Assembly: GCA_020073485.1 (NCBI GenBank)
Contig: JAIQFB010000001.1
Span: forward strand, 372,001 to 436,000
Length of the DNA stretch: 64,000 nucleotides
Direction: 5' to 3'
From: Terriglobia bacterium
Lineage (GTDB): Bacteria; Acidobacteriota; Terriglobia; Acidiferrales; UBA7541
Shown: piece after piece, positions 7,044-21,771 of the stretch
Position numbering within the stretch: the first letter of the stretch is position 1
Layout of the letters: each line of letters opens with the position of its first letter
Position numbers and translations under genes: made by a program
The notes under the pieces: generated by a model
What the model saw: only the letters and a program-made list of their open reading frames with translations
Told to the model about the DNA's origin: nothing
The model's database searches: none

Positions 7044-7066
7044 CTTTTCACTTTCCGCGCATATCG

Positions 7067-7105
7067 AAAATCCCCGGGTCAGAAGACCCGGGGATTTTCT
7101 TTTTT
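7067..7105. terminator. Strong intrinsic terminator, bidirectional
   Basis: A 14-bp perfect stem AAAATCCCCGGGTC / GACCCGGGGATTTT with an AGAA loop is followed by CTTTTTT. On the minus strand the 5' A-run also reads as a U-tract. It sits between the convergent TPR gene and the ABC permease gene and can serve both. Confidence 0.93.
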
Positions 7106-7122
7106 GTGGCCGGAAACTCGGG

Positions 7123-7956
7123 CTAGAAATGCGTGAGCGTGCCCGTGACTTTCGTGCGGCGCAATGCCCAGGAGAACACCACAAAAGAGACGGGCAGAAT
7201 CACGGCCGCGAAGGCCAGTAATACCGCCAGCGAGGGCCACAACTGGCGCAGCGAGGCATGTCCCAGCAGCGCCGTGCGCATTCCCTCCAGGGAATACGTG
7301 ACCGGAATCAATCGCGCCACTACCTGCAGCCATTTCGGCAGCACCGAAATCGGGTACATCATTCCTCCCACCACCGAGGAAAGCCCCACCACCGCCCAGT
7401 TCACGGGATTGCCGCGCTTGAACACCAGCAAATAGCTGGCGCTCAGGATTCCCAGTCCGGAAAAGGTGAGGACCGATGCCGCCAGGATCAGCGCCGCCCC
7501 CAGCCAGTTGGCGTCGCGCAGGGGAAAACCGAACAGCGCCGCGCCCCATCCGATGTAGATGGTCGTGCGCAGCGACAGCAACGCAAACGGATACAGGCTC
7601 GATCCCAGCAGGATCACGGGAAGGGAAGTCTGCGTCACCAGCAGATTTTCCAGCGTGCCGTTTTGCCTGGCCTCGCGCAAACTCTCATCGAAGGTTTGCA
7701 GCGCCACGCTCAGGTAATCGAAAAAGGCCAGCCCCACCAGGGCGAACGCGAAATAGCCGGAATTCTGCGGGAGAGACTTCTCCAGTTGAGGGCTGTTGAT
7801 GAACCGGGAGAGAAAATAAAAGCCGGCCACTGCGAAAAGAGATTCCAGGGCCTGCACCAGGAATGCCGCCCGGTAACTCCGCGCGACCGCAAAATCCCTT
7901 TTAAACAGCAGGGCTAATTTTCGCAGCGTCATGTGCAACCGGCCGGAATCGTTCAT
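7123..7956 (-). CDS. ABC-2 type transporter permease
   Basis: 277 aa with about six hydrophobic spans. The start region (LALLFKRDFAVARSYRAAFL) and the helix with GGMMYPISVLPKWLQ are typical of the ABC-2/NodJ-like exporter permeases. ATG at 7956 overlaps the stop of the upstream ATPase gene (ATGA), so the two are translationally coupled. An inner start at MTLRKLALLF is also possible. The protein would form the membrane pore with the 7953-8756 ATPase. The pair is divergent from the RiPP cluster and could export its product or give self-protection, but lipid, drug or polysaccharide substrates cannot be excluded. Confidence 0.88.
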   Translation of the reverse strand: MNDSGRLHMTLRKLALLFKRDFAVARSYRAAFLVQALESLFAVAGFYFLSRFINSPQLEKSLPQNSGYFAFALVGLAFFDYLSVALQTFDESLREARQNGTLENLLVTQTSLPVILLGSSLYPFALLSLRTTIYIGWGAALFGFPLRDANWLGAALILAASVLTFSGLGILSASYLLVFKRGNPVNWAVVGLSSVVGGMMYPISVLPKWLQVVARLIPVTYSLEGMRTALLGHASLRQLWPSLAVLLAFAAVILPVSFVVFSWALRRTKVTGTLTHF

Positions 7957-8756
7957 TGCGCTTCCCGCGCCGCGCGATGCGTGAGGATTTCCATCGACTG
8001 CTCCAGGGTTTCTGCGCCCGCTCCGGCCATCAAACCCGCGGGCGTATCGCAGCCGAGAATTCTGCCGCCGCCCAGAACCGCGACGCGTCCGGCGAGTTGC
8101 TCCACTTCGGAAAGAGTATGAGAGGCGAACAAGACCGCGGTGCCGTGCCGGCCGACGATTTGCTCGCGCAGAAATCGCCGAAATTCCGCGGCTGCCAGAG
8201 GATCCAGGCTGCGCGTGGGCTCATCGAGAAGCAAGACCGATGGGTTGTGCAGCATGGCCCGCGCCAGCCCCAGCCGGTGAATGTTTCCGGTGGAAAGTGT
8301 GCGCACCTGGCGATCGAGCAAGGGGCCGAGGCCGAACAGATCCGAAAGTTCCGCGATCCGCCGGGCCGTTTCCTTTGCCGGGAGGTTGTTCAGCCCGGCA
8401 AACAAATTCAGGTTTTCCCTGCCGCTCAGGCGCGAATAAAAGCAGGCGTCCGCTCCGGTGTGGTATCCGATCTGAAGGCGGACTTTGGCGGATTCCCGGG
8501 CGACGTCATAGCCGCAAACCTCGGCGCGCCCGCGCGTCGGAATCAGCAGGGTCGTCAGGATGCGCAGCAACGTCGATTTTCCCGCGCCATTGGCTCCTAC
8601 CAGAGCCAGCACTTCGCCGTGCTCGAGCGCAAAGGAAATTCCGCGCAGCGCCGGTACGGTCAGGCGCGACTCCGGATGCCACAGCGCCCGCCATCCGGTG
8701 ACGGCGGGCGGAAAATACTTTTCCAAATTTTCAGCACGCAGCGCGAAGTTTTTCAC
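7953..8756 (-). CDS. ABC transporter ATP-binding protein
   Basis: 267 aa beginning at a GTG (8756). Walker A is ANGAGKST (GANGAGKSTLL), Walker B is VLLLDEPTRSLDP, and the signature is LSTGNIHRLGLA instead of the classic LSGGQ. An insert before the Walker A domain (WRALWHPESRL) resembles exporter ATPases of the NodI or polysaccharide type. The candidate promoter upstream is very close, giving a short leader. The protein partners with the permease that overlaps its stop codon. Its shared intergenic region with the lasso-like operon suggests, but does not prove, a role in export or immunity. Confidence 0.9.
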   Translation of the reverse strand: MKNFALRAENLEKYFPPAVTGWRALWHPESRLTVPALRGISFALEHGEVLALVGANGAGKSTLLRILTTLLIPTRGRAEVCGYDVARESAKVRLQIGYHTGADACFYSRLSGRENLNLFAGLNNLPAKETARRIAELSDLFGLGPLLDRQVRTLSTGNIHRLGLARAMLHNPSVLLLDEPTRSLDPLAAAEFRRFLREQIVGRHGTAVLFASHTLSEVEQLAGRVAVLGGGRILGCDTPAGLMAGAGAETLEQSMEILTHRAAREAQ

Positions 8757-8983: not shown

Positions 8984-9283
8984 ATGAATCCAGTAATTTC
9001 CGTTCAATCCATAGTGGTAGCCGCGAAAGATCAAGTGTCGTGCGATCTGGCCGGTGAGGCCGCGATTCTCAACATCAAGAATGGCGTTTATTACGGGCTG
9101 GACCCGGTGGGCGCGCGGATCTGGAGCCTGATGCAGGAGCCTCGAGCCGTGTCCGACATTCAGAACACGATCACCGGCGAATATGACGTTGAGCCGGAGC
9201 GCTGCGCGCGGGACCTGACTGAACTCCTCGAAAAACTTCTGGCCGAAGGACTGATTGAGGTGAAAGACAGTTCCGCCGCCTGA
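8984..9283 (+). CDS. PqqD-like RiPP recognition protein (lasso B1 type)
   Basis: 99 aa from ATG 8984, preceded by GAGGGAG at 8972-8978. The sequence follows the PqqD/B1 pattern closely: AILNIKNGVYYGLDPVGARI, then WSLM, then an EYDVEPERCARDL helix and a closing LAEGLIEV strand. In lasso biosynthesis the B1 protein is the RiPP recognition element that binds the leader peptide and presents it to the B2 protease and the cyclase. Here it opens a run that includes B2, cyclase and precursor, which supports that role. The next gene starts only after a 339-base gap, unusual for B1-B2 pairs. Confidence 0.88.
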   Translation: MNPVISVQSIVVAAKDQVSCDLAGEAAILNIKNGVYYGLDPVGARIWSLMQEPRAVSDIQNTITGEYDVEPERCARDLTELLEKLLAEGLIEVKDSSAA

Positions 9284-9622
9284 GATTTTTTGCGGTTGGT
9301 GAAGCGCGTAACGGTCGGGAATGAACCGACTATCGATCGAAACCGAAACGAGTAACGCGACTCTTAAAGCCGCAAACCGCAACGTCCCGAATGTGAGCCG
9401 CTCGAACGCCATGCCGATGGGACGCGAAATTGGGCGGCGCCAATCGCGCCTTCTTTTCCGTGGGCGAAATCCCCGGCAGGCGGCGGTTTTTTCCGGCCAG
9501 CCGGCTGCCCAAACGAACTTCAACCATCCCGTGCCGGGAGATGCGGCTCCCGCAGGAAATCCATTGTACGGCGGTGCGCATCTGACTTCCGGCATGGCCA
9601 GGGCGCAATGCGCGGGAGACCG
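9284..9622 (+). other. 339-base gap between B1 and B2; contains an uncertain ORF
   Basis: No recognisable gene. A plus-strand frame from ATG 9321 runs 101 codons and its TGA (9624-9626) overlaps the B2 ATG as ATGA, which is what translational coupling looks like. However the product is polar, Asn/Arg/Pro-rich, shows no fold or family I know, has weak third-position GC bias and has no good ribosome binding site. Another plus frame ending at about 9584 has a stronger GC bias but also no recognisable motif and no clear start. No lasso-type leader motif (Tyr-x2-Pro-x-Leu) was found in it. It may be a degraded gene or untranslated spacer. Confidence 0.3.
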
Positions 9623-10141
9623 ATGACCGGAAGCCGCAAGACACTGCCCGAAAAATGGCGCGGATTTCGGAATCGCCCGCCCGAGGAGCGAACGCTTATT
9701 GTCCACGCCGCGATGCTGCTGCCATTGACCGAAGCCGGGTTGCGCTTGTTCGGCTTCCGGCGGTGCAAGGAACTGATCGAAAAATTTTCTCCCTCGCGGC
9801 GCCTTCCCCAAACCTTGCCCGTTGACGCGGAACACGAGGCGGCCATGCGCGCCGTCCGTGCCGTGCGCTCGGTGGAGTTGCACGGCCCAGCCAATCCCAA
9901 TTGCTTGGAGCGTTCGATGACGCTTTGGTGGCTGTTGCGGCGCGACGGCATCGATGGCGAGCTGCATATCGGCGCGCGCAAGGAAGACGGTCAATTAAAA
10001 GCGCATGCCTGGGTGGAACTGCGCGGGGAAGTGTTGAACGACAACGCGGAAATACACAATCACTATGCGCGTTTCGACGCTCCCATTGCGGCTGCCGAAG
10101 ACGCGAGTGCGCGCGCTGGCGCGGCCGTGAAGCCGGAGTGA
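9623..10141 (+). CDS. Lasso-type leader peptidase (McjB/B2, transglutaminase-like fold)
   Basis: 172 aa from ATG 9623, with GGGAGA just upstream (an in-frame ATG at 9608 would add five residues). The catalytic Cys-His-Asp set is visible: C94 in NPNCLERS, H128 in KAHAWVEL and D140 in EVLND. The pattern LWWLLRRDGIDGELHIGARK between them is typical of the McjB C-terminal domain. The N-terminal half lacks an RRE, as expected for a split B1/B2 system in which the separate PqqD-like protein supplies it. The family cleaves the leader peptide after a conserved Thr at position -2. It is followed by the cyclase gene. Confidence 0.87.
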   Translation: MTGSRKTLPEKWRGFRNRPPEERTLIVHAAMLLPLTEAGLRLFGFRRCKELIEKFSPSRRLPQTLPVDAEHEAAMRAVRAVRSVELHGPANPNCLERSMTLWWLLRRDGIDGELHIGARKEDGQLKAHAWVELRGEVLNDNAEIHNHYARFDAPIAAAEDASARAGAAVKPE

Positions 10142-10235
10142 TGCGCCGCCGGCTCCATGCAAGCCGCACACGGTTTGGCTCGCCCGCCGCGGTGAAAGGG
10201 ATACACTTGCAGTTCAAGCGGGAGACGTTTCGCGG

Positions 10236-12068
10236 ATGAGCGGGTTTGTCGGAATCTGGAATCTGGACGGAGCGCCGGTGGACCGCGCGCTGCTCGAACG
10301 GATGACGCAGGCCCTCGCGTTTCGCGGCCCCGACACGCAACGGATCTGGTGCGATGGCCCCATCGGCATGGGCCACGCGTTGCTGCAAATCCCGCCGGGG
10401 GCTCCGCTGGAGGAGCAACCCGCGCACCTCGAGGGCCGCCTGTGGATCGCGGCGAACGCGCGGCTTGATGCGCGCGATGAACTGATCGGTAAGCTTAAGG
10501 AAAAATGCCGGACCGCGGACACGCTATCTTTATCCACTCCTGATGCCGAACTCATCCTGCATGCCTACGATGCCTGGGGCGAAGCCTGCGTGGAATATCT
10601 GCTTGGAGATTTCTCCTTTGCACTCTGGGACGCGCAAGTAAAGCGCTTGCTTTGCGCGCGCGATCCGATGGGAATCAAGCAGCTGTACTATGCCCAGGCC
10701 GGCTCCTCGCTTGTCTTCGGCAATACGCTGAATTCCATCCGGTTGCATCCGGGTGTTTCCAGGCGGCTCAACGATCTGGCGATTGCCGATTTTCTCTTGT
10801 TCGAGATGAATCAGGATCCCTCGACCACGTCGTTCGCCGATATTCGCCAACTGCCTCCTGCACACGCGCTGCTCTGCGAGCGGGGAGCTATAAGTGTGCG
10901 GCGCTATTGGGAGTTGCCGCCTGCCGCGCCCGTTCATTTCTCCCGGAACGCGGAATACGTCGAGCGCTTTCGGGAACTGCTCGACGTCGCCGTGGCCGAC
11001 CGCCTGCGCGGCAGCAACGTGGGCATAGCAATGAGCGGGGGCCTTGACTCGACCGCGGTGGCCGCCAGTGCGCAGCGGGTTCTTGCTCGCACTGGAAATG
11101 TCAACGGCGTCCGCGCCTACACGGAAGTTTTTGACAGCCTCATTCCGCATGAAGAGCGGCGCTACGCCACGCTTGCCGCAAACGCTCTGAAGATTCCCAT
11201 CGAATATCTTGTCAGCGACAACCGGAAAATATTTGAGCGCGGCGACGAGCAAACCCGTCGTTTACCGTTACCCATAAATTTGGCTTGGCCGGATGCCTCT
11301 CCCGATCAGTTGCGCCAAATCATTGTTCATAGCCGCCTCGCCTTGACCGGGTTTGGCGCCGATCCGGCGTTTGCCGCGCGGATCACAGTTCATTTTCGCC
11401 AGTTGATTAAGAAAGGGCGATTCGATCGCGCGCTGGCGGACGCGGTTCACTATCTCACCAGGCCGGGAAGGACGTCCCGGCTTTACTTGCGTCTTCGGTG
11501 GCAACGATTGTTTCCTGCCAAGACCTCCGCGGTCCCTTACCCGGAATGGTTAAATCCAGGCTTGGAGAAGAGGTTGTCCCTGCGCGAACGTTGGGCGGGC
11601 CTGACCCATGATCAATTTCCCAACCATTCTGCTCGTCCAGAAGCGTACGAATTGATTGCCAGCCCGGGTTGGCCGAGCCTTTTTGAACTCCTCGATCCCA
11701 ACGTGACTCAAATGCCGGTCGAGGTACGCAACCCCTTTTTCGATCTACGTTTGCTCCATTTTCTTCTGGCACTGCCCAGACTGCCCTGGTGCTGTGACAA
11801 AGAATTGCTCCGGGAAGCTGCCCGCGGCTCACTTCCCGAAGCCGTGCGTTTGCGCCGAAAATCACCCATGCCCGCCGAGACCTTGAACGCACTCCTTCAG
11901 AAGCCCGAGTCTGCGTGGGTTGATCGTTTCGACCCCATCGAGGAACTGGAAACTTACGTATTGCGGCAGAAGATTCCCCCTGTATACTGTGAAAAGGACC
12001 TATGGTCCGCCCGGGTTCACCTTAGGCCACTCAGCCTTAATTTTTGGTTGCGCCATAGAGAATCTTGA
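10236..12068 (+). CDS. Lasso cyclase-like asparagine synthetase homologue
   Basis: 610 aa. The N-terminal glutaminase-like domain begins MSGFVGIWN: the position-2 nucleophile Cys of true Gln-dependent amidotransferases is Ser, so it should not release ammonia from Gln. The C-terminal synthetase domain has the ATP-binding PP-loop SGGLDS at residues 267-272. This fits lasso cyclases (McjC family), which adenylate an Asp/Glu side chain of the core and let the peptide N terminus attack it to form a macrolactam. Its stop overlaps the reading frame of the precursor gene. Regular asparagine synthesis is unlikely given the Ser2 and the B1/B2/precursor neighbours. Confidence 0.87.
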   Translation: MSGFVGIWNLDGAPVDRALLERMTQALAFRGPDTQRIWCDGPIGMGHALLQIPPGAPLEEQPAHLEGRLWIAANARLDARDELIGKLKEKCRTADTLSLSTPDAELILHAYDAWGEACVEYLLGDFSFALWDAQVKRLLCARDPMGIKQLYYAQAGSSLVFGNTLNSIRLHPGVSRRLNDLAIADFLLFEMNQDPSTTSFADIRQLPPAHALLCERGAISVRRYWELPPAAPVHFSRNAEYVERFRELLDVAVADRLRGSNVGIAMSGGLDSTAVAASAQRVLARTGNVNGVRAYTEVFDSLIPHEERRYATLAANALKIPIEYLVSDNRKIFERGDEQTRRLPLPINLAWPDASPDQLRQIIVHSRLALTGFGADPAFAARITVHFRQLIKKGRFDRALADAVHYLTRPGRTSRLYLRLRWQRLFPAKTSAVPYPEWLNPGLEKRLSLRERWAGLTHDQFPNHSARPEAYELIASPGWPSLFELLDPNVTQMPVEVRNPFFDLRLLHFLLALPRLPWCCDKELLREAARGSLPEAVRLRRKSPMPAETLNALLQKPESAWVDRFDPIEELETYVLRQKIPPVYCEKDLWSARVHLRPLSLNFWLRHRES

Positions 12069-12097
12069 TGGTAAAAGCTTACGGGAAGGAGAACACA

Positions 12098-12247
12098 GTG
12101 AACCCAAGTTTGCCCCAATCCGGCAAGAAACCCTACAGCACGCCAATCATTAAGATCTATGGCGATATTCGCGTCATAACGCAGTCCATCACGAAGACCC
12201 ACGTCACAGCCGATGCAGGCACGTATCCTGGTAATACCAAAACGTAG
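12098..12247 (+). CDS. Putative lasso-like RiPP precursor peptide
   Basis: 49 aa from GTG 12098, chosen because GGGAAGGAG (12083-12091) lies 6 bases upstream. An ATG at 12068 overlapping the cyclase stop would add ten residues. The leader carries the lasso recognition motif Tyr13-x2-Pro16-x-Ile18-x3-Gly22-x5-Thr28 (YSTPIIKIYGDIRVIT), the spacing expected for B1 binding and for cleavage two residues after Thr28. Cleavage after Q29 leaves a 20-residue core starting SITKTHVTADAG and ending NTKT. The only acidic residue in the core is Asp39, at core position 10 (or 9 if cleavage is one residue later), whereas known lasso rings use positions 7-9. The core is Thr-rich (six Thr) and has no aromatic plug except one Tyr. 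No other gene in the cluster fits a precursor. Confidence 0.75.
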   Translation: MNPSLPQSGKKPYSTPIIKIYGDIRVITQSITKTHVTADAGTYPGNTKT

Positions 12248-12261
12248 CTAAGTTTACGGTT

Positions 12262-13299
12262 GTGCGAGGACCGGTCGGAACTCCATTGCCAGCCTCTTAT
12301 TTGCTTTACGGATTGCGAGCTTTCAGTAACCTTCCCATTCCGGGCTTAGTCCTTACGGAAGGGTCCAGCACCGTTCCTGTTCACATTCGACTGAAGAACG
12401 GGTCCGAGTTCGCCTCGAAGTTTTCCGCATCACTGAGTGATATCTTTTATACCAGCCCGAATTCCAATCGGAACGGCGACTCCAACTTGCGCGCCGGCAT
12501 GCTCAATGACGGCGCCTACTACGGTTTCTTCTACAGCGATGGTCCAAGATTTGCCATCGACCGCCAGGGCCGCGAAATCTGGGGCGATTGGCCTGATGGC
12601 TATACTCTGGAAGACGTCTGCACCTACCTGATCGGCCAAGTAATCAATTTCGCGTTGCGCCTGCGAGGGATTACCTCTCTGCACGCGAGTTCGATTGGCA
12701 TAGGAGATCGGGCCATCGCCGTCATGGGAGCGCCTGGAGCGGGAAAATCAACCACAGCTGCCGCTTTCGCGCGACTCGGCTATTCGATCCTTTCGGATGA
12801 TGTCGCTGTTCTGGATGATCAGGACAGTACGTTTCTGGTTCAGCCGGGATACCCGCGCGTCAATTTGTGGCCGGATTCGGCGCGCGCGCTGTTCGGTCCC
12901 GGAGAGGAGTTGCCGCGTATTACCCCTACGTGGGGAAAGAAGTACCTGTCGCTTGATAGGGGCGGCTACTGTTTCCAGCCGAAGCCTCTGCCTCTGAGCG
13001 CGGTGTACTTGCTCGATGTGCGCGAAGATGCACCGGAAGCTTCGATTCTGGAGGAGCTGACACCCACGGATGCGTTCTTAGCTTTGGTTGCGAACACATA
13101 CTTGAATTATCTTCTGGACGCTGACATGCGAAGCCACGAATTTGAAATGCTTGGCCGCGTGGCCAAGATCGTGCCTGTCCGCCGCGCGTGTCCCGCTCGT
13201 GACCCGTCCAAGGTATTTGAGCTTTGCAATGCGATTGCCGCGGATGTCAAACGGCTCAGAATACAGGAACCGGCGAATGCGATGTCGGGTTCCCTGTGA
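12262..13299 (+). CDS. HPr-kinase-like P-loop kinase, probable RiPP tailoring enzyme
   Basis: 345 aa from a GTG at 12262, 14 bases after the precursor stop. The N-terminal part (YGLRAFSNLPIPGL) and the central kinase fold match the HPrK-like proteins of lasso clusters. Walker A is GAPGAGKST (about 156-164), preceded by the conserved H141 (SLHASS), and a SDD pair follows at 178-180. Paeninodin-type clusters encode a homologous kinase that phosphorylates the C-terminal Ser of the precursor. Here the precursor ends in Thr, a possible acceptor. The protein lacks the HPr partner context of carbon regulation, so a tailoring role is favoured. The exact start is uncertain because no strong ribosome binding site is visible. 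Confidence 0.82.
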   Translation: MRGPVGTPLPASYLLYGLRAFSNLPIPGLVLTEGSSTVPVHIRLKNGSEFASKFSASLSDIFYTSPNSNRNGDSNLRAGMLNDGAYYGFFYSDGPRFAIDRQGREIWGDWPDGYTLEDVCTYLIGQVINFALRLRGITSLHASSIGIGDRAIAVMGAPGAGKSTTAAAFARLGYSILSDDVAVLDDQDSTFLVQPGYPRVNLWPDSARALFGPGEELPRITPTWGKKYLSLDRGGYCFQPKPLPLSAVYLLDVREDAPEASILEELTPTDAFLALVANTYLNYLLDADMRSHEFEMLGRVAKIVPVRRACPARDPSKVFELCNAIAADVKRLRIQEPANAMSGSL

Positions 13300-13418
13300 A
13301 TCGGTAATTTGCGGGAGGTCTTAAAGCTGGAGGGTAGACTGGACGAATCGCGGGTGGACAGAGTGCGTTTTCGCCACGTAAGATTGCTGGCGGGTGAAAT
13401 TGGACGGAAATAGAAATA

Positions 13419-14375
13419 ATGAAGACCGCCACACAAGGATTGCAAACACTGCCGGTCGAGCGAACAGCTAGCCTAACTCCTGAAATCTTTCATCAGCGCT
13501 ACCTCACTGGATCCGGCAAACCTGTTATCGTCTCCGACGCCCTGAATTCCTGGGAAGCAGTGTCGCGGTGGAGCTTCGACTTATTTAAGGCGCGCTACGG
13601 GGCCGATCGAGTCTCGCCAAAAATTTTCCGGGGCGTCAAGCGCGTGAAGTTAATGACGCTTAGCGAATTCCTGGACTATCTCGATGCTCCGGATGCTGTG
13701 TCGCCGGGTTTGTGGATCGACCCGGAAACGCTGTATCCATGTGCGGCTCCCGCGGACCCCGGTTCGTCTCCCTTGTACCTGGTTTGGGACGGATTCGGAA
13801 TGCATCCAGAATTGCTCGATGATGTGGAACTTAGCCCGACATTTGTCGAGGACTGGCTGCCCTTATTGCCGCCCGGCTTGCGTGGGGCCCTCAACACCAC
13901 GAAATTCTTTTCCGCGGGATTCATGATTGGCCCCAAAGGCGCGCAAATCGGGCTGCATTACGATTTTCTGCAATCGCACGCATATCTGGCGCAGATCATC
14001 GGTAAAAAAAGATGCTTGCTGTTTTCACCGGAAGATTCCGTGGCGCTCTATGGCGGAAAGGTCAATCCCGATGTGCCCGACTTCAAAGAATTTCCGCTTT
14101 TCAGAAATGTGACCGCGTATCAATGCACGCTGGAGCCGGGCGAGCTGCTGTTCATGCCTTGCGGGTGGTGGCATCACGTTGTTTCCCTGGAAAAATCGGT
14201 CACCGTGAACTACAACTTTTTTAACCGTGTTAACTTCAGCGGCTATCTGACCCATCTGCTGCGCGAAATGCCGCTCGTTGTGAGCGCTTTGGAGCAGTTG
14301 CCTGATCAGCGCGCAGCTCTCGGGATCAAATGGAAATCCCGCGGATTTGATTTTCCCGAGTCCGGCGTGGTGTGA
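13419..14375 (+). CDS. JmjC/cupin-8 type Fe(II)/2-oxoglutarate oxygenase
   Basis: 318 aa. The N-terminal part (SGKPVIVSDALNSWEAVSRW) is the typical entry of FIH/JmjC-like cupin-8 proteins. The iron triad is visible as H180-x-D182 (GLHYDF) and H252 or H253 (CGWWHHVVS), preceded by LEPGELLFMP. The substrate-binding Lys/Thr region is also present (NVTAYQCTLEPGELL). Family members hydroxylate side chains of peptides and proteins, or transfer RNA bases. Located between the HPrK-like kinase and the PRMT-like gene, it is a good candidate to hydroxylate the RiPP core (Asp, Asn, Lys or Pro). The 119-base gap upstream holds no gene I trust. Function is inferred from position. Confidence 0.8.
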   Translation: MKTATQGLQTLPVERTASLTPEIFHQRYLTGSGKPVIVSDALNSWEAVSRWSFDLFKARYGADRVSPKIFRGVKRVKLMTLSEFLDYLDAPDAVSPGLWIDPETLYPCAAPADPGSSPLYLVWDGFGMHPELLDDVELSPTFVEDWLPLLPPGLRGALNTTKFFSAGFMIGPKGAQIGLHYDFLQSHAYLAQIIGKKRCLLFSPEDSVALYGGKVNPDVPDFKEFPLFRNVTAYQCTLEPGELLFMPCGWWHHVVSLEKSVTVNYNFFNRVNFSGYLTHLLREMPLVVSALEQLPDQRAALGIKWKSRGFDFPESGVV

Positions 14376-14406
14376 TGGCCCTTTTGGTTGCTATACTGCA
14401 GCCGAA

Positions 14407-15567
14407 GTGATTACGCATTTTTATAACCTTGCCGGATATGCGGGGCTTATCGCGGATCGCGTTCGCACGGACGCGTATGCCCAGGCCCTTCGCGGGGCTA
14501 TTCGGCCGGGCTCGGTGGTATTGGAGATCGGCACGGGGCCCGGCATCTTTGCGGTTCTGGCCTGTCAACTTGGGGCCGGCCGCGTCATCGCGATTGAGGC
14601 CAGTCCCGTCATCCAGTTGGCGCGTGACGTTGCTGCGGCTAATCACTGTACCGAACGGATCGAGTTCATCGAGGATCTTTCCACGAACGTGAATTTTCCT
14701 ATTCGCGCGGATGTCATTGTTTCCGATTTGCACGGGGTTCTTCCCCTCTTCGAACACCACATTCCATCGATCGTGGATGCCAGACGGCGATTTCTTGCTC
14801 CCGGCGGTATGCTGATTCCCCGAAAAGAAGTGATCTGGGCCGCCGTTGTTGAAGCTCCGGATCGATATGGAAAGATTGTGGATCCGTGGGAGCACAATGG
14901 ACTCGGCCAGGATCTTGGTGCGGCCAGGAAGCTGGTCGTGAACGAAATCCTAAAAGCGCGTTTTACTCCTGCCCAGATGCTCACCGAACCGCTTGTCTGG
15001 GCCACGCTCGACTACTCAACGATGGAGAGTCCAGATGTTCAGGGCGAACTGTGCTGGTCGATTCAGCGCGACGCGACCGGACACGGGATCGCCGTCTGGT
15101 TCGAATCGGAACTGGCGGACGGCGTGCATTTTTCCAATGCCCCCGGAGAGCCGGAGACAATTTATGCCTGCATGTTTTTCCCGTGGCTGAACCCGGTGCC
15201 CCTGGCTGCGGGCCAACGTGTGCGTGTCGATCTTCTTGCGAAACTTCTCGGAAGCGATTATTTCTGGCGCTGGACGACAAAGGTCGGATCGATGGAATCG
15301 CCGGAAAAAATCATCACGCAATTTGACCAATCGCAGCTCCATGGGTCGATTTTGTCTCCCGCCGCGCTCCACCGAGGGGCGTCTACCTTCGTTCCGCAGA
15401 TCTCCGAAAAGGGAAGGATGCAACAAAGGACGCTCGAACTCATGGATGGAAGCGCCCCGCTCGAGGAAATTGCGAAACGCCTCGCGGCCGAGTTTCCCTT
15501 GCGCTTCACTTGCTGGCAGCAGGCGCTTTCCTATGCCGGAGAACTTTCCAGGGAATACAGCCGGTAA
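14407..15567 (+). CDS. PRMT-like methyltransferase with PqqD-like C-terminal domain
   Basis: 386 aa from GTG 14407; a TTG at 14347 in frame would add 20 residues and overlap the oxygenase gene. The N terminus (AGYAGLIADRVRTDAYAQAL) and SAM motif I (VVLEIGTGPGIFA) match protein arginine methyltransferases. The region equivalent to the double-E loop reads SDLHGVLPLFEHHIPS, keeping only one Glu, so the target need not be Arg. A PRMT beta-barrel follows. The last ~55 residues (GRMQQRTLELMDGSAPLEEI onward to LSREYSR) look like a PqqD/RRE winged-helix, with the LELMDGSAPLEEIAKRLAAE helix pattern. A recognition domain fused to a methyltransferase suggests the enzyme docks on the leader peptide. I know of no characterised lasso enzyme with this architecture. 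Confidence 0.7.
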   Translation: MITHFYNLAGYAGLIADRVRTDAYAQALRGAIRPGSVVLEIGTGPGIFAVLACQLGAGRVIAIEASPVIQLARDVAAANHCTERIEFIEDLSTNVNFPIRADVIVSDLHGVLPLFEHHIPSIVDARRRFLAPGGMLIPRKEVIWAAVVEAPDRYGKIVDPWEHNGLGQDLGAARKLVVNEILKARFTPAQMLTEPLVWATLDYSTMESPDVQGELCWSIQRDATGHGIAVWFESELADGVHFSNAPGEPETIYACMFFPWLNPVPLAAGQRVRVDLLAKLLGSDYFWRWTTKVGSMESPEKIITQFDQSQLHGSILSPAALHRGASTFVPQISEKGRMQQRTLELMDGSAPLEEIAKRLAAEFPLRFTCWQQALSYAGELSREYSR

Positions 15568-15677
15568 TCCACCGCGTGAGAAAATGTGGTCCCGACGTGT
15601 CCCCCATATCTCTCCGGAGCGGTAGGTGAATTTCCGCACGTGTTAAACTGACTTTAAAGACGTGCCGAGGGGTAGAA

Positions 15678-16415
15678 ATGAAATGGCTTGGACGAAATTT
15701 AAGAAGGCGTTTCCGCCACGGTCTTCGCCATCCTGGTTACACGGCGAAAGCGCTGTTTCATGATGCTCTTGGGATAGACGAGAGGTTCCTCGCAAGCCTT
15801 GTGAATTCGACCCCCGGCGCGATTCGCGGGTTTCTGAACGAACCCTCCGCGAATGTGGAGCTCATGCGGCATTGGAAGAGGTGCGAGCAAAAGCTGCACG
15901 CGGGCTCCCACCCGGGCAACGATCCGTATGCGAAAAAAGTATTGATGCAATATGCCCTGACGCGCGCCTTGGCGCCGGATTTGGTCGTGGAGACCGGTGT
16001 ATCGAGCGGCATATCTTCCACCTACTTGCTCCTGGCGTGTCGCCTCAACGGCAAGGGGCACGTTTATTCAATTGATATCGACAATAAGGAGTATCTGGCC
16101 CCGGGAAACCGCATCGGTTGGATTGTGCCCGATGACCTTAAAACTCGGTGGTCTCTCTTGTTGGGCGACTCCCACGTTGTGCTTCCACACATCCTTTCGC
16201 AGTTGGCTCAAGTGGATATATTTATTCACGATAGCAGCCACACCTACGAGAACATGAAGTTCGAATTCGAGACAAGTTATCCGTATATCCGTCCGGGTGG
16301 ATTGCTCTTGTCCGACGATACCAACTTCAATGCGGCATTTTCCGAATGCGCGAAGGCGTTCCAACCCAAAGCAGTCCGGATTATCCGCAATCTAGGAATT
16401 ATGAAGAAGGCATGA
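15678..16415 (+). CDS. CmcI/Methyltransf_24-like SAM-dependent methyltransferase
   Basis: 245 aa. The Rossmann core shows LVVETGVSSGISSTYLLLA (motif I), GHVYSIDID, then DIFIHDSSHTYENM and GGLLLSDDTN. The acidic/His pattern near HDSSHTYE and SDD resembles the metal-dependent CmcI/catechol-type enzymes. GAGGGGTAG is just before the ATG. It may methylate the RiPP product or a glycan; its placement between the PRMT-like and nucleotidyltransferase genes makes RiPP tailoring plausible. The last ~12 residues look like a natural C terminus, with no sign of truncation. Confidence 0.8.
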   Translation: MKWLGRNLRRRFRHGLRHPGYTAKALFHDALGIDERFLASLVNSTPGAIRGFLNEPSANVELMRHWKRCEQKLHAGSHPGNDPYAKKVLMQYALTRALAPDLVVETGVSSGISSTYLLLACRLNGKGHVYSIDIDNKEYLAPGNRIGWIVPDDLKTRWSLLLGDSHVVLPHILSQLAQVDIFIHDSSHTYENMKFEFETSYPYIRPGGLLLSDDTNFNAAFSECAKAFQPKAVRIIRNLGIMKKA

Positions 16416-16505
16416 CGATATGGGCCGGCACCGGAAATGTCGTCGACCATTAACCAATACGCCTTAATTTAGGTGGCGAACTCGAAAAGGCGCGAGAATG
16501 GCAGC

Positions 16506-17759
16506 ATGACGCGGGAAAGGGGCTGGCGGCAATGCGCGGGCGCGGCACGCCCGGAATTGGAATTCAATTTATGCTGCGGCCGCGCGCTGATCGATCCCGC
16601 GGCCAACGAAAGTGTTCGCCGCCTTATTCAGGAGGGATTGAATTGGCCCGAGGTGCTGGCTGTTGCCGAGCGGCACCGGTTGTCGCCGGTCGTTTATGAG
16701 GTTGTTTCCGCCGCGGCGCAGGACCTGATCTCGCCCGCGCAATTGGATGATCTGCGCCAAGCAGCGGCGCCCTCCATGGCCGCCGGGAAAGCGCTGCTTT
16801 GGGAATTGATCCGTTTGCACCGTTTATTCGAGGGCGCCCAAATTCCGGTGTTCCCCTACAAGGGGCCGCTGCTGGCGTGGATTGCGTACGGCAGCTTCCT
16901 GCGGCGCGAATATCTGGACCTGGATTTCGCCGTCGAACAAAGAAATATTCCCCGGACTCTCGAATTGCTTGAATCCGCGGGTTATCGCCCGCAGTTTGAC
17001 CGGCGGGAGGCGCACGCGGGGGAAGACGGAATCGCGCCGGGCCAGTATTCGTTCCAATCGCACCCGCACAAAATTCTGGCCGAATTTCACACCGAGCGGA
17101 CCCTGCGTTATTTCCCCACTCCCATCGATTTTCAGGACCTAAATACCAGGCTGATGACCGTCGAAATCGGCGAACAGCGCCTGCGCACATTTTCCATCGA
17201 AGACACGCTGGTCATGCTATGTGTCCACGGCGCGAAACACTTCTGGGAGAGGCTGGGCTGGGTGCTCGACATCGCGAAACTGATAACGGCTCAGCAGGTG
17301 AATTGGGAGTTGCTCTCGCGGATTGCGGCAAAAATGGAATCCACTCGCGTGCTACATCTGGGGCTTTACTTGGCGCACGATTTGTTCGGCGCTGCGTTGC
17401 CCGAGCCCATGCTGGAAGAGATTCGCCGTGATCCCGCCGTGCAAGAGTTGGCGGAAAAAGTGTATGAACAATATTCGGGCATCTCGGATCACACCGCGGG
17501 CGTACTGCCGCGTGCCGTGTTCCGGCTCCGATCGCGCGATAAATTCTGGCCCGGCCTGCGCCATCTCTTGCGCCTGGGGATGAGCCCGACCGAGCGCGAC
17601 CTGCAGACCGTGCGTTTGCCGCGTTACCTTGCCCCGCTGTATGTGCTCGTCCGCCCCTGGAGGCTTCTCACCCAGTACGGATGGGGATGGAAACGCCGGC
17701 CGGGGAATGCGCTTTCCCAAAATGAAACGGGTCGCAAAGGATCCGGGGGCGAAACTTGA
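16506..17759 (+). CDS. NTP_transf_5-type nucleotidyltransferase
   Basis: 417 aa from ATG 16506 (a GTG at 16473 would add 11 residues; neither has a strong ribosome binding site). The nucleotidyltransferase core shows PYKGPLL (K119-G120), GS at 129-130 and D138-x-D140 (REYLDLDFAV), the metal-binding pair. A helical C-terminal half follows. Members of this family recur in lasso clusters that also have an HPrK-like gene. Their reaction in these clusters is not established; nucleotide transfer to a phosphorylated C terminus is one idea. It ends the RiPP run; the next gene starts after 125 bases and belongs to the polysaccharide island. Confidence 0.78.
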   Translation: MTRERGWRQCAGAARPELEFNLCCGRALIDPAANESVRRLIQEGLNWPEVLAVAERHRLSPVVYEVVSAAAQDLISPAQLDDLRQAAAPSMAAGKALLWELIRLHRLFEGAQIPVFPYKGPLLAWIAYGSFLRREYLDLDFAVEQRNIPRTLELLESAGYRPQFDRREAHAGEDGIAPGQYSFQSHPHKILAEFHTERTLRYFPTPIDFQDLNTRLMTVEIGEQRLRTFSIEDTLVMLCVHGAKHFWERLGWVLDIAKLITAQQVNWELLSRIAAKMESTRVLHLGLYLAHDLFGAALPEPMLEEIRRDPAVQELAEKVYEQYSGISDHTAGVLPRAVFRLRSRDKFWPGLRHLLRLGMSPTERDLQTVRLPRYLAPLYVLVRPWRLLTQYGWGWKRRPGNALSQNETGRKGSGGET

Positions 17760-17884: not shown

Positions 17885-19168
17885 ATGCCTGATGGAGCGC
17901 CCAATTCTGCAGCGCGTTGGTCCGCGGTCGCTATTGCGATCGCGGCCGCGATCTGGTTTTCCTACGCGGGCGTGAAGCATGCCGTTGCCAGCCATTATGC
18001 CGGATCAACCAGCGCGGACGATTGGCTGCATGCTGCTCAAGTGGAACCGGCCGACGCCGAACATTGGTACCAGTTGGGGCGATTCCGCCAGCTGGATTTC
18101 GAGCACACCGATCTCACCCTGGCCCTTACTTACTATCGCCGCGCCGTCGAGCTGAATCCGTATTCGCCATTCTACAAACTCGATCTGGCCGGCACGCTTG
18201 AGATGTCCGGGCAGTACGCGGAAGCGGACAAATATTTTCAAGCCGCCCAGCACGATTATCCGATTTCTCCGGAAGTCTCCTGGAAATACGGCAATTTTCT
18301 GCTCCGCCAGCAGCGCCTGACCGAAGCCTATGACGAAATTCACCGCGCCGTGATGGTGGACCCAAAGCTCATACCCCTGGCCGTTTCGCGCGCCTGGCGG
18401 AGCGATCCGGATGTCCACGTCTTGCTGGATCAAATTTTGCCCGATACACCCACCGCGGACTGGGGAGCGATCGCCTATCTATCCGATTCGCAGGAGCCTG
18501 TGGCCGGACTGGCGGTCTGGAGCCGCCTGATCGCAAAGAAGCCGGCCGTGGAATGGAAAACCGTGTTCCCGTTCCTCGACATGCTGGTCGCGCAGGAACG
18601 ATACGACGACGCCGGCCAGGTGTGGCGCCAGGCATTGTCCCTCGCGGGCGATTCCGCGTCTGCGCAGGAGGCGCGCTCGCTGGTCTTTGACGGCGGATTT
18701 GAAAAGGATCTGTCCGGCGGGGGATTCGGCTGGCAGGAAACGGACGTTGCCGGCGCCAATTTTGATATCGATAGCGACATCAAACATTCGGGCGAGCGTT
18801 CGGCGCGAATCGTTTTCGATGGGTCCGAAAATCTTGCTTACAACAATCTGTATCAACAGGTGCTTGTGACTCCCGGAACGCGCTACCGCTTCCAGGGATA
18901 CCTGCGAACGGAACAGATTTCCACCGATAGCGGCGTACGATTTGAAATCTACGATCCCAGGGACCAGAAGTCCCTGGATATTTTGACGCCCAATGAACAC
19001 GGCACGCAGCCCTGGACTCTCGAGGAGGCCGACTTCATCACCGGGGCGCAAACGCACCTGATCCGCGTGCGTGTGTTTCGCGCACCCAGCGCGCGGCTCG
19101 ACAACAAGATCAGCGGAACGGCGTGGGTGGACGACGTGGCAATTTTCACGGGAGGACCAAAGCCATGA
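17885..19168 (+). CDS. Membrane-anchored TPR protein with C-terminal beta-sandwich
   Basis: 427 aa. One transmembrane segment at about residues 10-28 (SAVAIAIAAAIWFSYAG) anchors it to the inner membrane. TPR-type helices fill about residues 45-170 (for example LTLALTYYRRAVELNPYSPF). From about residue 265 a jelly-roll module of carbohydrate-binding type follows (LVFDGGFEKD, then GTRYRFQGYLRTEQ). Such proteins often sit beside O-antigen ligase-like genes and may scaffold the polymer machinery in the periplasm. Its stop overlaps the next ATG by four bases (ATGA), so it is coupled to the polymerase/ligase gene. Exact function unknown. Confidence 0.8.
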   Translation: MPDGAPNSAARWSAVAIAIAAAIWFSYAGVKHAVASHYAGSTSADDWLHAAQVEPADAEHWYQLGRFRQLDFEHTDLTLALTYYRRAVELNPYSPFYKLDLAGTLEMSGQYAEADKYFQAAQHDYPISPEVSWKYGNFLLRQQRLTEAYDEIHRAVMVDPKLIPLAVSRAWRSDPDVHVLLDQILPDTPTADWGAIAYLSDSQEPVAGLAVWSRLIAKKPAVEWKTVFPFLDMLVAQERYDDAGQVWRQALSLAGDSASAQEARSLVFDGGFEKDLSGGGFGWQETDVAGANFDIDSDIKHSGERSARIVFDGSENLAYNNLYQQVLVTPGTRYRFQGYLRTEQISTDSGVRFEIYDPRDQKSLDILTPNEHGTQPWTLEEADFITGAQTHLIRVRVFRAPSARLDNKISGTAWVDDVAIFTGGPKP

Positions 19169-20394
19169 GCGTGGTCCGCACGGGCATCTGCATCCTGGTT
19201 GCGTTCGCCGTGCTGGCCCATGGCGGCGTCGAGCCCTGGTCCGAGGCCGTGCTGGAAGCGGGCGCCGCCGTTTTGCTGCTGGTCTGGGCGGTGAAAATAG
19301 CAACCGATCCGGGCCTAACCCTGGTTTGGAGCACCTTATTCTGGCCGCTGCTGGCGGTCTGGGTCGTGGCGGCAGTGCAATGGGGAACGGGTCTTAGCAT
19401 GGTTCCGTTTTTAACGCGTATCGAGCTATTGAAATATTCCGCGCTGATCGCCCTGTTTTTTCTGTGCCTGCAATCCTACCGGACGCGCCAGCAGTGGCGC
19501 GGATTCGTATGGTTCCTGCTGATCCTGGGGTTCGCCGTTTCACTATTCGCCATCCTGCAGCATTTTACGTTCAATGGAAAATTGTACTGGGTGCGCGAAA
19601 TGCGCTACGGAGGGACGCCCTTTGGCCCGTACGTGAACCGCAACCATTTTGCCGGCCTGATGGAATTGCTGATCCCGCCCGGCGTGGCCATCCAGGTCCT
19701 GGGAGGAGAGCGCCGCGACCAAATGCCCCTTTTGGCACTGTTCACGGTGTTGCCCATCGGGGCGTTGTTCCTGTCCGCCTCGCGCGGCGGGATCATGAGT
19801 TTCTTTGCGGAGATGGCCTTTCTGGCCATCCTGGTAGTCTTGCGCCGGCGCGAGAAAAAAGCGCTGGTGGCGGCCGTCCTGGTTGTCGGGTTTGCTGCCG
19901 TGCTGGTGTCGTGGCTGGGCATTGGCGCCGCGATGGACCGCTTTGAAAGCTACAAGGGACTCGAGGTCAGCGAGGGCCGGCGTGTCAGCATGTTGCATGG
20001 AACCTGGCATATTTTCCTCGATCATCCCGTTCTTGGAACCGGTTTGGGCACATTGCAACAAATATATCCCCGTTATGAAACTGTCTACGACGGGCTGTTG
20101 GTGAATCACACCCATAACGATTATGCCGAGGCGCTTGCCGAGACAGGCGTTATTGGTGGGATTTGTTTCGCTTCGTTCCTGATTGTTCTGTTTTGGAACG
20201 GCTGGAAAATTCTAGCAGCAGATAGCGATGCAAGAAATCTGGCGTATCACGCCGGCGCTTTGATCGCGTGTTTAGGCCTTCTGGTTCATGCTTTTGTGGA
20301 TTTCAATTTTCATATTCCCTCGAACGCACTCCTATTTCTTCTCCAGGCGGCTTTGGCCACCTCCGTGCTTCCAATATCCGAGCGAGGGCGCTGA
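19165..20394 (+). CDS. O-antigen ligase/polymerase-like membrane protein
   Basis: 409 aa from ATG 19165, coupled by ATGA to the upstream TPR gene. About ten hydrophobic spans are visible. The large periplasmic loop has FGPYVNRNHFAGLMELLIPP and later HNDYAEALAETGVIG, the pattern of the Wzy_C/WaaL superfamily (O-antigen ligase and polymerase). It likely polymerises or ligates lipid-linked glycan repeats on the periplasmic side. The coupled TPR protein and the Wza/Wzc genes downstream favour a Wzy-type polymerase. Polymerase and ligase cannot be told apart from sequence alone. Confidence 0.85.
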   Translation: MSVVRTGICILVAFAVLAHGGVEPWSEAVLEAGAAVLLLVWAVKIATDPGLTLVWSTLFWPLLAVWVVAAVQWGTGLSMVPFLTRIELLKYSALIALFFLCLQSYRTRQQWRGFVWFLLILGFAVSLFAILQHFTFNGKLYWVREMRYGGTPFGPYVNRNHFAGLMELLIPPGVAIQVLGGERRDQMPLLALFTVLPIGALFLSASRGGIMSFFAEMAFLAILVVLRRREKKALVAAVLVVGFAAVLVSWLGIGAAMDRFESYKGLEVSEGRRVSMLHGTWHIFLDHPVLGTGLGTLQQIYPRYETVYDGLLVNHTHNDYAEALAETGVIGGICFASFLIVLFWNGWKILAADSDARNLAYHAGALIACLGLLVHAFVDFNFHIPSNALLFLLQAALATSVLPISERGR

Positions 20395-20583
20395 ACATTA
20401 TCGCTCGGAATGCCGATAGAAAACACGGAGGACAATTCCGGTTTCTACTGCAAATGATGGAACCAGTGCGGGCCGAATTACCGCAATGCCGGAGATACTG
20501 CCTGCTCGGATGGGAACACCGGTGCACAGTTTTGGTGCGGTGTACCTATCCGGAACATTCTAATTTTTCACTAATAAATCCGC

Positions 20584-20610
20584 TTGACTCGCAAGAAGTC
20601 TCTGTATAAT
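20584..20610 (+). promoter_or_regulatory. Strong candidate sigma70 promoter of the export/co-polymerase operon
   Basis: TTGACT (20584-20589) and TATAAT (20605-20610) are 15 bases apart, slightly short, and lie 30 bases upstream of the SLBB gene. The surrounding gap (20395-20583) is AT-richer than the genes and contains no reading frame of note. Confidence 0.6.
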
Positions 20611-20639
20611 GGCAAGCGCGTGGGGGAACATATTTTTTT

Positions 20640-21716
20640 ATGATTCAACAACAGCAGGGCACGTCCCGCCCGGCAGTGCAGGTGTTTACCTGGGCCTTGA
20701 TTTTTCTTCTGCTTCTGGCGCCGGCAGCGTTTTCCCAACAAGAAAAAAAGATCGGAAAGCAAACCAACCTGGCGGTCTCGGAAACCAACGATCGCATCGC
20801 GCAGTTGGCGCAGGCGACTTCGGTGAGGCAGGGCGATTACGTGATCGGCAGCGGCGATCTTCTGGGCGTGGATGTGTTTGACGTGCCCGAGCTTTCCCGC
20901 GACGTCCGCGTCAATGAATCCGGGTATATCTCCCTTCCGCTGATGCCAGCCAAGGTGCGCGCCGAAGGCCTCACCACGTTTCAGTTGCAGGACAAACTGG
21001 CCGAGCTGCTGCAGACCAACGGATTGGTTTCGTCGCCGCAAGTCAGCGTCTCACTGAAAGAGCGGAACAGCCAGCCCATCACTATCATCGGCTCGGTCAA
21101 GACTCCCATGGTGATCCAGGCGGTGCGCCAGACCACGTTGCTACAGGCGCTTTCCCAGGCCGGCGGAATCGCCGACGATGCCGGAAACTCGGTGATCGTG
21201 ACGCGCCAGGCGGAAAAAGCGCTTCCTGCAAGCGATCCGAATGCTCCGCCGATGGCCGCCGAGCCACTGTCGTTCACAATTAATCTGGCCGATCTGCTGG
21301 AAACCGGCGATTCCCGGTTCAATATTCCGCTTCTGGGGGGCGACGTGGTTTCCGTGCCGCGCGCCGGGATCATCTACGTGGTCGGCGCGGTCGTTCGTCC
21401 CGGGGGCTTCGTGATGCAAAACGACCGCGACCACATGACCACCCTGAAAATGTTGTCTCTGGCGGGCGGGCCGAACAACACGGCAAAAGTCAAGGATGCC
21501 GTGATCCTTCGCAAGAATCCGGAGACGGGAAAACGCGACGAGGTTCCCGTGGATTTGAATAAAGTGATGAAACTGAAGACAGAAGATGTCACCCTGCAGG
21601 CCAGCGACATCCTGTTTGTTCCGGACAGCGCGGGCAAACGGGCGCTGCATCGCACCGGCGACATTGCCATATCGCTCACCACCGGCATTGCCATCGTTGC
21701 CGCCGGTAAATTCTGA
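20640..21716 (+). CDS. Wza-like polysaccharide export protein (SLBB domains)
   Basis: 358 aa with an N-terminal signal peptide ending near APAAFSQQ (about residue 33). The polysaccharide export motif begins DYVIGSGDLLGVDVFDVPEL, and two SLBB beta-grasp units follow (SQPITIIGSVKTPMVIQ, then GIIYVVGAVVRPGGF). Wza-type proteins form the periplasmic and outer-membrane conduit for capsule or EPS. No lipobox Cys is seen after the signal peptide, so it may be soluble or inserted without lipidation. The Wzc-type kinase gene follows after 55 bases. Confidence 0.92.
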   Translation: MIQQQQGTSRPAVQVFTWALIFLLLLAPAAFSQQEKKIGKQTNLAVSETNDRIAQLAQATSVRQGDYVIGSGDLLGVDVFDVPELSRDVRVNESGYISLPLMPAKVRAEGLTTFQLQDKLAELLQTNGLVSSPQVSVSLKERNSQPITIIGSVKTPMVIQAVRQTTLLQALSQAGGIADDAGNSVIVTRQAEKALPASDPNAPPMAAEPLSFTINLADLLETGDSRFNIPLLGGDVVSVPRAGIIYVVGAVVRPGGFVMQNDRDHMTTLKMLSLAGGPNNTAKVKDAVILRKNPETGKRDEVPVDLNKVMKLKTEDVTLQASDILFVPDSAGKRALHRTGDIAISLTTGIAIVAAGKF

Positions 21717-21771
21717 ACGGTTGAAAGACCGGATGCCTTCGACTTGACACTTTGGAGCGGATAACGACCTT

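Follow-up and report, generated by a model that had tools for sequence, protein, structure and literature searches.

A predicted lasso-peptide operon of a kinase-type, PRMT-associated family in an acidobacterium

Gene cluster and precursor peptide

The stretch analyzed here (hereafter the window) comprises 64,000 nucleotides of Terriglobia bacterium (Acidobacteriota; GenBank assembly GCA_020073485.1, contig JAIQFB010000001.1, positions 372,001 to 436,000) and carries a putative lasso-peptide gene cluster. On the plus strand, the cluster has the order B1, B2, C, precursor (A), KIN, JMJ, a methyltransferase with the fold of protein arginine methyltransferases (PRMT), a CmcI-like methyltransferase, and NTP, with intergenic gaps of −1 to 324 bases. 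A preliminary description had read positions 8984 to 17759 as a lasso-like cluster of a ribosomally synthesized and post-translationally modified peptide (RiPP). The named genes are found at or close to the positions it gave, all on the plus strand, but the run goes on beyond 17759 into an exopolysaccharide (EPS) locus. B1 (8984..9283, plus strand) is a PqqD-like RiPP recognition element (RRE; PqqD E 5.9e-19), and scores 79.2 bits against the lasso PqqD family NF033536, whose cut-off is 80. B2 (9623..10141, plus strand), the leader peptidase of transglutaminase fold, scores 84.8 bits against NF033537 (lasso_biosyn_B2; cut-off 33) and is the only B2-type gene in the 5.05 Mb genome. Its triad Cys94-His128-Asp140 was correctly proposed, provided that numbering begins at the start 9623 and not at the alternative start 9608. 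C (10236..12068, plus strand), the lasso macrolactam cyclase, combines GATase_7 and Asn_synthase domains, contains the PP-loop SGGLDS, and has the lasso isopeptide cyclase NF033535 as its best NCBIfam match (E 2.5e-103). B1, B2, and C together make up the enzyme set that marks lasso biosynthesis. With the leader motif described below, they bear out the reading of a lasso-like RiPP cluster.

The precursor gene (12098..12247, plus strand) was assigned from its motif register and a weak match to the NCBIfam lasso family NF033528 (E 2.8e-5). GTG 12098, which lies behind AAGGAG, is a likelier start than ATG 12068, which would overlap the stop codon of C by one base. The leader ends at 12184, and the core (12185–12244) is SITKTHVTADAGTYPGNTKT. 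The leader contains Tyr(−17), Pro(−14), Ile(−12), Gly(−8), and Thr(−2), arranged as Y(−17)STPII...G(−8)...T(−2)Q, and so carries both the YxxPxL/I motif and the Thr(−2) of lasso precursors; the same spacing serves cut-site placement in PMC10368454. The predicted ring residue is Asp10 (codon 12212..12214, plus strand), the sole acidic residue of the core, and the expected Asp or Glu at core position 7–9 is therefore missing. As the 7–9 range describes characterized members (PMC10368454, PMC13352647), Asp10 limits the claim of a standard ring, not that of a lasso machinery.

We then inspected 41 precursors that had been collected by motif, chiefly in kinase-type loci, a set from which atypical precursors are missed. 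The first acid within positions 7–12 is at position 7 in one, 8 in nine, 9 in 18, 10 in 12, and 11 in one, so that the ring acid falls at 10 or 11 in 13 of the 41. A 9-residue ring would still result if B2 cut the D10 precursors one residue further, giving Ile as residue 1 in the window. Structurally characterized lasso rings all have 7, 8, or 9 residues, and production reportedly drops when a ring is made one residue larger or smaller (June 2026 review, PMC13352647). Against the later cut, residue 1 under the Thr(−2) register is Ser, Thr, or Ala in D10 cores as it is in D8/D9 cores, whereas the shifted register would place Ile, Val, Lys, and similar residues there in D10/D11 cores. When the D8/D9 cores of this set are used to train a simple model, the Thr(−2) register comes out better by 21.7 nats for the D10/D11 cores, judged by residue 1. 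Locus L151 would need a ring of 10 even with the later cut. Hence we regard the 9-residue ring as unlikely, and predict a ring one residue larger than any solved lasso ring. A search of the open-access literature for lasso peptides with 10-membered or 10-residue rings gave nothing relevant, a weak negative given its partial coverage.

The cyclases of L154, with a D9 core, and L167, with a D10 core, are 92% identical. L155 and L167 have an identical core, yet their cyclases are only 79% identical. In the congener G479, two tandem C-A-KIN-(JMJ)-PRMT units (L151:4359-15512) have the ring acid at position 11 in one unit and 10 in the other. A precursor-like peptide at L068:11192-11401, TCGITTKATGNMLRVCL, has a core devoid of acidic residues, which makes an ordinary macrolactam ring impossible there.

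The PRMT-fold methyltransferase

The PRMT-fold gene (about 14407..15567, plus strand; alternative start TTG 14347) encodes a methyltransferase with a C-terminal three-helix tail. Sequence and structural model concur on a complete PRMT fold, the model aligning with PRMT1 at a VIA Z of 35.3 and a root mean square deviation of 2.2 over 312 residues. The whole fold is common to PRMT1, PRMT6, and PRMT8 (Z 35), but the window enzyme differs from them in the double-Glu loop, in the THW His, and in the extra tail. Specifically, Asp replaces the first Glu and Ile the His of THW, and the second Glu is kept. Departure from the arginine methyltransferase pattern is clade-wide. The first Glu is replaced by Asp in 40 of 51 lasso-linked copies versus 1 of 49 others, the second is retained in 18 of 50 versus 44 of 48, and the THW His is mostly lost too; the tail is present in 41 of 53 lasso-linked copies versus 2 of 49 others. 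Because the rows are related to one another, the Fisher P values make the contrast look stronger than it is, although it is still plain. As the window core contains no Arg, arginine methylation of its product is excluded, and the altered double-Glu loop likewise speaks against it; the core at L065 has neither Arg nor Lys. Thus, the term "PRMT-like" in the preliminary description holds for the fold but not for arginine methylation. A search of the open-access literature for lasso peptides with arginine methyltransferases, partial in coverage and hence a weak negative, returned nothing relevant.

The tail had been called PqqD-like. It resembles the helical half of PqqD/RRE, but its model consists of helices only. 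The hhalign probability against B1 is 17%, and Foldseek matches to PqqD/B1 are weak. A full RRE was therefore rejected; lacking the leader-binding β-strands that accompany the three helices of a PqqD/RRE domain, the tail is not a demonstrated RRE.

As to its target, the enzyme might act like StspM and form a methyl ester at the C-terminus, or act like the PIMT homologues and form an aspartimide. Both chemistries are known in lasso peptides, and a target without a guanidinium group would be in keeping with the lost double-Glu loop. The lasso clusters of StspM, which makes a C-terminal methyl ester, and of LihM, which makes a PIMT-type aspartimide, also share with the window the presence of an S-adenosylmethionine-dependent methyltransferase, but these two enzymes belong to other methyltransferase families. 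The fold here is that of PRMT, the match to PIMT is weak (PCMT E 0.025), and the sole Asp is needed for the ring, a point that tells against an aspartimide. We consider either product doubtful.

The distribution of the enzyme was examined in an even draw of 396 genomes across the phylum and in 89 genomes of the family, with neighborhood genes marked by profiles grown from the window proteins. The top PRMT matches adjoin B2, C, or KIN in both sets, and the closest named relatives of the window gene are from Acidobacteria metagenome-assembled genomes. In a quick tree, the window enzyme belongs to a 32-row clade with an SH-aLRT support of 100, and 31 of these rows are in lasso loci; L167 is counted among the 31 by the C, A, and KIN at its locus, and the remaining row, L175, runs off its contig. 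A second clade of eight rows (SH-aLRT 99) is lasso-linked throughout. The cores ending in Cys-Leu (L068, L101, L176, L177, and L178) pair with this second clade, and as several of them have no Ser or Thr near the C-terminus, the kinase target must differ there. A scan of named genomes found PRMT together with lasso genes in further Acidobacteria, Myxococcota ("Deltaproteobacteria"), Actinomycetota, and Nitrospirota. By gene neighborhood, lasso clusters of the kinase type have the PRMT-fold enzyme as a core partner in at least four phyla.

This distribution bears on a competing explanation, in which an ordinary kinase/NTP lasso cluster of the paeninodin, pseudomycoidin, or Bsf kind is adjoined by PRMT-fold, JmjC, and CmcI genes that belong to the EPS locus. 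EPS genes lie directly downstream of the window cluster and adjoin 21 of 52 KIN-type lasso loci versus 0 of 18 KIN-less ones (P 0.0007, uncorrected for kinship), and CmcI homologues without lasso genes exist. Yet the lasso-linked rows of the PRMT clade include the EPS-free loci L062, L070, L152, and L171, and the lasso-linked enzyme has an active-site and tail signature of its own. We consider this explanation quite improbable.

Kinase, NTP-transferase, and lineage-limited enzymes

KIN (12262..13299, plus strand) is an HprK-type peptide kinase with its His, GxxGxGKS, and Asp-Asp motifs intact; it matches TIGR04352 (E 1.1e-10) and Hpr_kinase_C, both below their curated cut-offs. KIN is present in 52 of the 70 C-containing lasso loci examined. 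NTP (16473..17759, plus strand; NTP_transf_5, PF14907 E 2.1e-53), a nucleotidyl/glycosyl transferase of the PsmN type, recurs alongside lasso genes in relatives. Both were rightly named as known lasso companions, with paeninodin and pseudomycoidin as precedents. Kinases of this type act on linear precursors, which they phosphorylate mostly at a C-terminal Ser and once at Ser3 (in BsfA, PMC10368454), and the NTP-transferase PsmN attaches a hexose to the phosphate. The window core ends in Thr and not in the C-terminal Ser. In most window-type cores, [K/R]-Thr stands at the C-terminal end, followed by no more than three residues, which makes Thr20 the likeliest KIN target. A BsfA-like phosphorylation at residue 3 was discarded, as this residue is not conserved in these cores. 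[K/R]-Thr was also tried as a PRMT signature and dropped: it occurs in L237, which has no PRMT nearby, and is missing in the PRMT-bearing L065 and L157. KIN accompanies PRMT in 40 loci, while C and PRMT occur without KIN in three, all on split or short contigs, a pattern compatible with methylation after phosphorylation.

The 10-residue ring might also remain unthreaded, giving a branched-cyclic product with a short tail that has no bulky plugs. Some tails are indeed short and free of aromatic residues (L155 GQANKTN, L160 NVMAKRT), and larger rings would be more prone to unthread. The core enzymes, however, are of lasso type, and a phosphate-sugar on Thr could serve as plug. We consider an unthreaded product improbable.

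JMJ (13419..14375, plus strand) is a JmjC/Cupin_8 Fe(II)/2-oxoglutarate (2OG) oxygenase that scores above the curated Pfam cut-off (Cupin_8 E 8.9e-33) and has an intact HxD...H motif as read by eye. Its nearest solved relatives are TYW5, then JMJD5 and FIH. A 74% homologue occurs only in the congener G479, whose tandem lasso units hold one full JMJ and one C-terminal JMJ relic between KIN and PRMT. Outside the window genome, matches in the phylum draw reach at most 38%, and not one of the further family homologues that were examined adjoins lasso genes. By this survey, JMJ is tied to lasso units only in the window genus. The CmcI/rhamnosyl-O-methyltransferase-like gene (15678..16415, plus strand; Methyltransf_24 E 5e-20, RMNT_CmcI E 9e-8) scores 32.5 bits against PF04989 (cut-off 23.2), and Methyltransf_24 scores higher. 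It sits between PRMT and NTP, which adjoin each other in relatives. Its closest homologue (68%) is in the lasso locus L237 of another genus of the family, adjoining KIN, B2, B1, C, and a precursor with D10. No lasso genes lie near the remaining family homologues that were examined (L238–L241). From these neighborhoods, CmcI is a late insertion, lasso-linked only in the window cluster and one other genus of the family. Between precursor and CmcI homologue, L237 also encodes a fusion of 2OG-Fe(II) oxygenase, tetratricopeptide repeats (TPR), and a GT41-type glycosyltransferase (6180-8558, minus strand).

The kinase, the PRMT-fold enzyme, and NTP recur with B1/B2/C in dozens of loci in Acidobacteriota, Myxococcota, Actinomycetota, and Nitrospirota. 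The recurring order in the family is B1-B2-C-A-KIN-PRMT; NTP is usually present as well, and genes for TPR and O-antigen ligase are often near. In terms of sequence, this recurrence shows B1, B2, C, precursor, kinase, PRMT-fold enzyme, and NTP to be one cluster. The single pathway proposed earlier for all tailoring genes thus stands for kinase, PRMT-fold enzyme, and NTP, but not for JMJ and CmcI as conserved parts. The suggested comparison across Acidobacteriota accordingly split: relatives have the lasso set without JMJ and CmcI, but PRMT recurs. As JMJ and CmcI are lineage-limited, the five-enzyme set was rejected as a conserved architecture or subclass; the conserved unit is the PRMT-associated kinase-type lasso family.

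The flanks are partly conserved. Divergent from B1 on the minus strand lie an ABC-2 permease (7123..7956; ABC2_membrane E 7.7e-19), a candidate exporter with equivalents in L161, L164, and L158, and its partner ABC transporter ATPase (7953..8756; ABC_tran E 1.7e-29), also conserved in position. The synteny QueE-TPR-ABC-B1-B2-C-A-KIN-PRMT-NTP is held in L164 and mostly in L158 and L161; the TPR-side flank is kept in L161, L163, and L164, and QueE in L163 and L164. Genes for a TPR protein, O-antigen ligase, Poly_export, and a Wzc-like kinase (17885..24084, plus strand) form the EPS part of the conserved neighborhood. For a Bacillota RiPP family that includes a kinase and an NTP-transferase, a 2026 paper reports that an EPS gene in the lasso-cluster region rose in step with the cluster. 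A functional link between KIN-type lasso clusters and EPS genes is possible.

Known clusters and a proposed pathway

The paeninodin (PadeK), ThcoK, and SyanK clusters likewise have B1, B2, C, a precursor, and an HprK-type kinase acting near the C-terminus. They differ in having a C-terminal Ser where the window has Thr after Lys/Arg, and the PRMT-fold, JmjC, and CmcI enzymes, all present in the window, are not described there (PMC9266682). Pseudomycoidin (PsmK/PsmN), from Bacillus, shares kinase and NTP-transferase, which add phosphate and then hexose, but no PRMT-fold enzyme is described. The bsf cluster of Bradymonas, whose authors point to Acidobacteriaceae relatives, shares the split B1/B2, kinase, and nucleotidyltransferase; its ring is at Asp8, its leader has Ile(−2), and BsfK phosphorylates Ser3, in contrast to Asp10 and Thr(−2) in the window (PMC10368454). 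The soil acidobacterial biosynthetic gene cluster 44.1 has the identical order ABC permease, ABC ATPase, B1, B2, C, A, but its table lists no tailoring enzymes (PMC9064862), whereas the window has five. CanE of canucin A, which modifies a lasso precursor, is like JMJ an Fe(II)/2OG oxygenase; JMJ, for its part, has the JmjC hydroxylases TYW5/JMJD5/FIH as nearest solved relatives.

By analogy with characterized relatives, B1 would bind the YxxPxI leader, KIN would phosphorylate the precursor, most likely at Thr20 of the [K/R]-Thr end, and NTP would extend the Thr phosphate in the manner of PsmN. The PRMT-fold enzyme would methylate a non-arginine residue, perhaps only after phosphorylation. B2 would cut after Gln(−1), and C would link Ser1 to Asp10 to close the 10-residue ring. 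JMJ probably hydroxylates a core residue, at a guess Asn17 or His6; CmcI, a relative of sugar methyltransferases, might methylate the sugar added by NTP, which is likewise a guess.

Taken together, we assign a probability of about 0.7 to the window cluster being a lasso-peptide operon that belongs to a PRMT-associated phospho-lasso family of the kinase type, whose rings are predicted to have 10 residues. Several points weigh against this assignment. The alignment of cut sites and ring acids rests on motif spacing; the quick PRMT tree has many weak forks; and some counts are inflated by loci having been picked partly by PRMT or B2 matches. CmcI is found in one PRMT cluster only. L153–L156 have C, precursor, KIN, and PRMT but no B1/B2 in the 15–18 kb around, so that these two genes must either have been lost or lie at another site of the genome.

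A further proposal, to which we give slightly less than even odds, is that cyclases of one lasso family would make 10-residue (once 11-residue) rings, and that the PRMT-fold enzyme would have moved from arginine to a new, possibly phosphorylation-dependent peptide target. KIN and NTP were already known as lasso companions; the finding of Asp10 as sole core acid, and of the ring acid at position 10 or 11 in related precursors, is new. D10 precursors would escape mining filters set to a ring acid at 7–9, and the 92% identical cyclases with D9 and D10 cores make the determinant of ring size directly testable. As a regular partner of kinase-type lasso clusters, the PRMT-fold enzyme with its remodeled active site would bring RiPP chemistry a further family of methyltransferases and, probably, a modification that is new.

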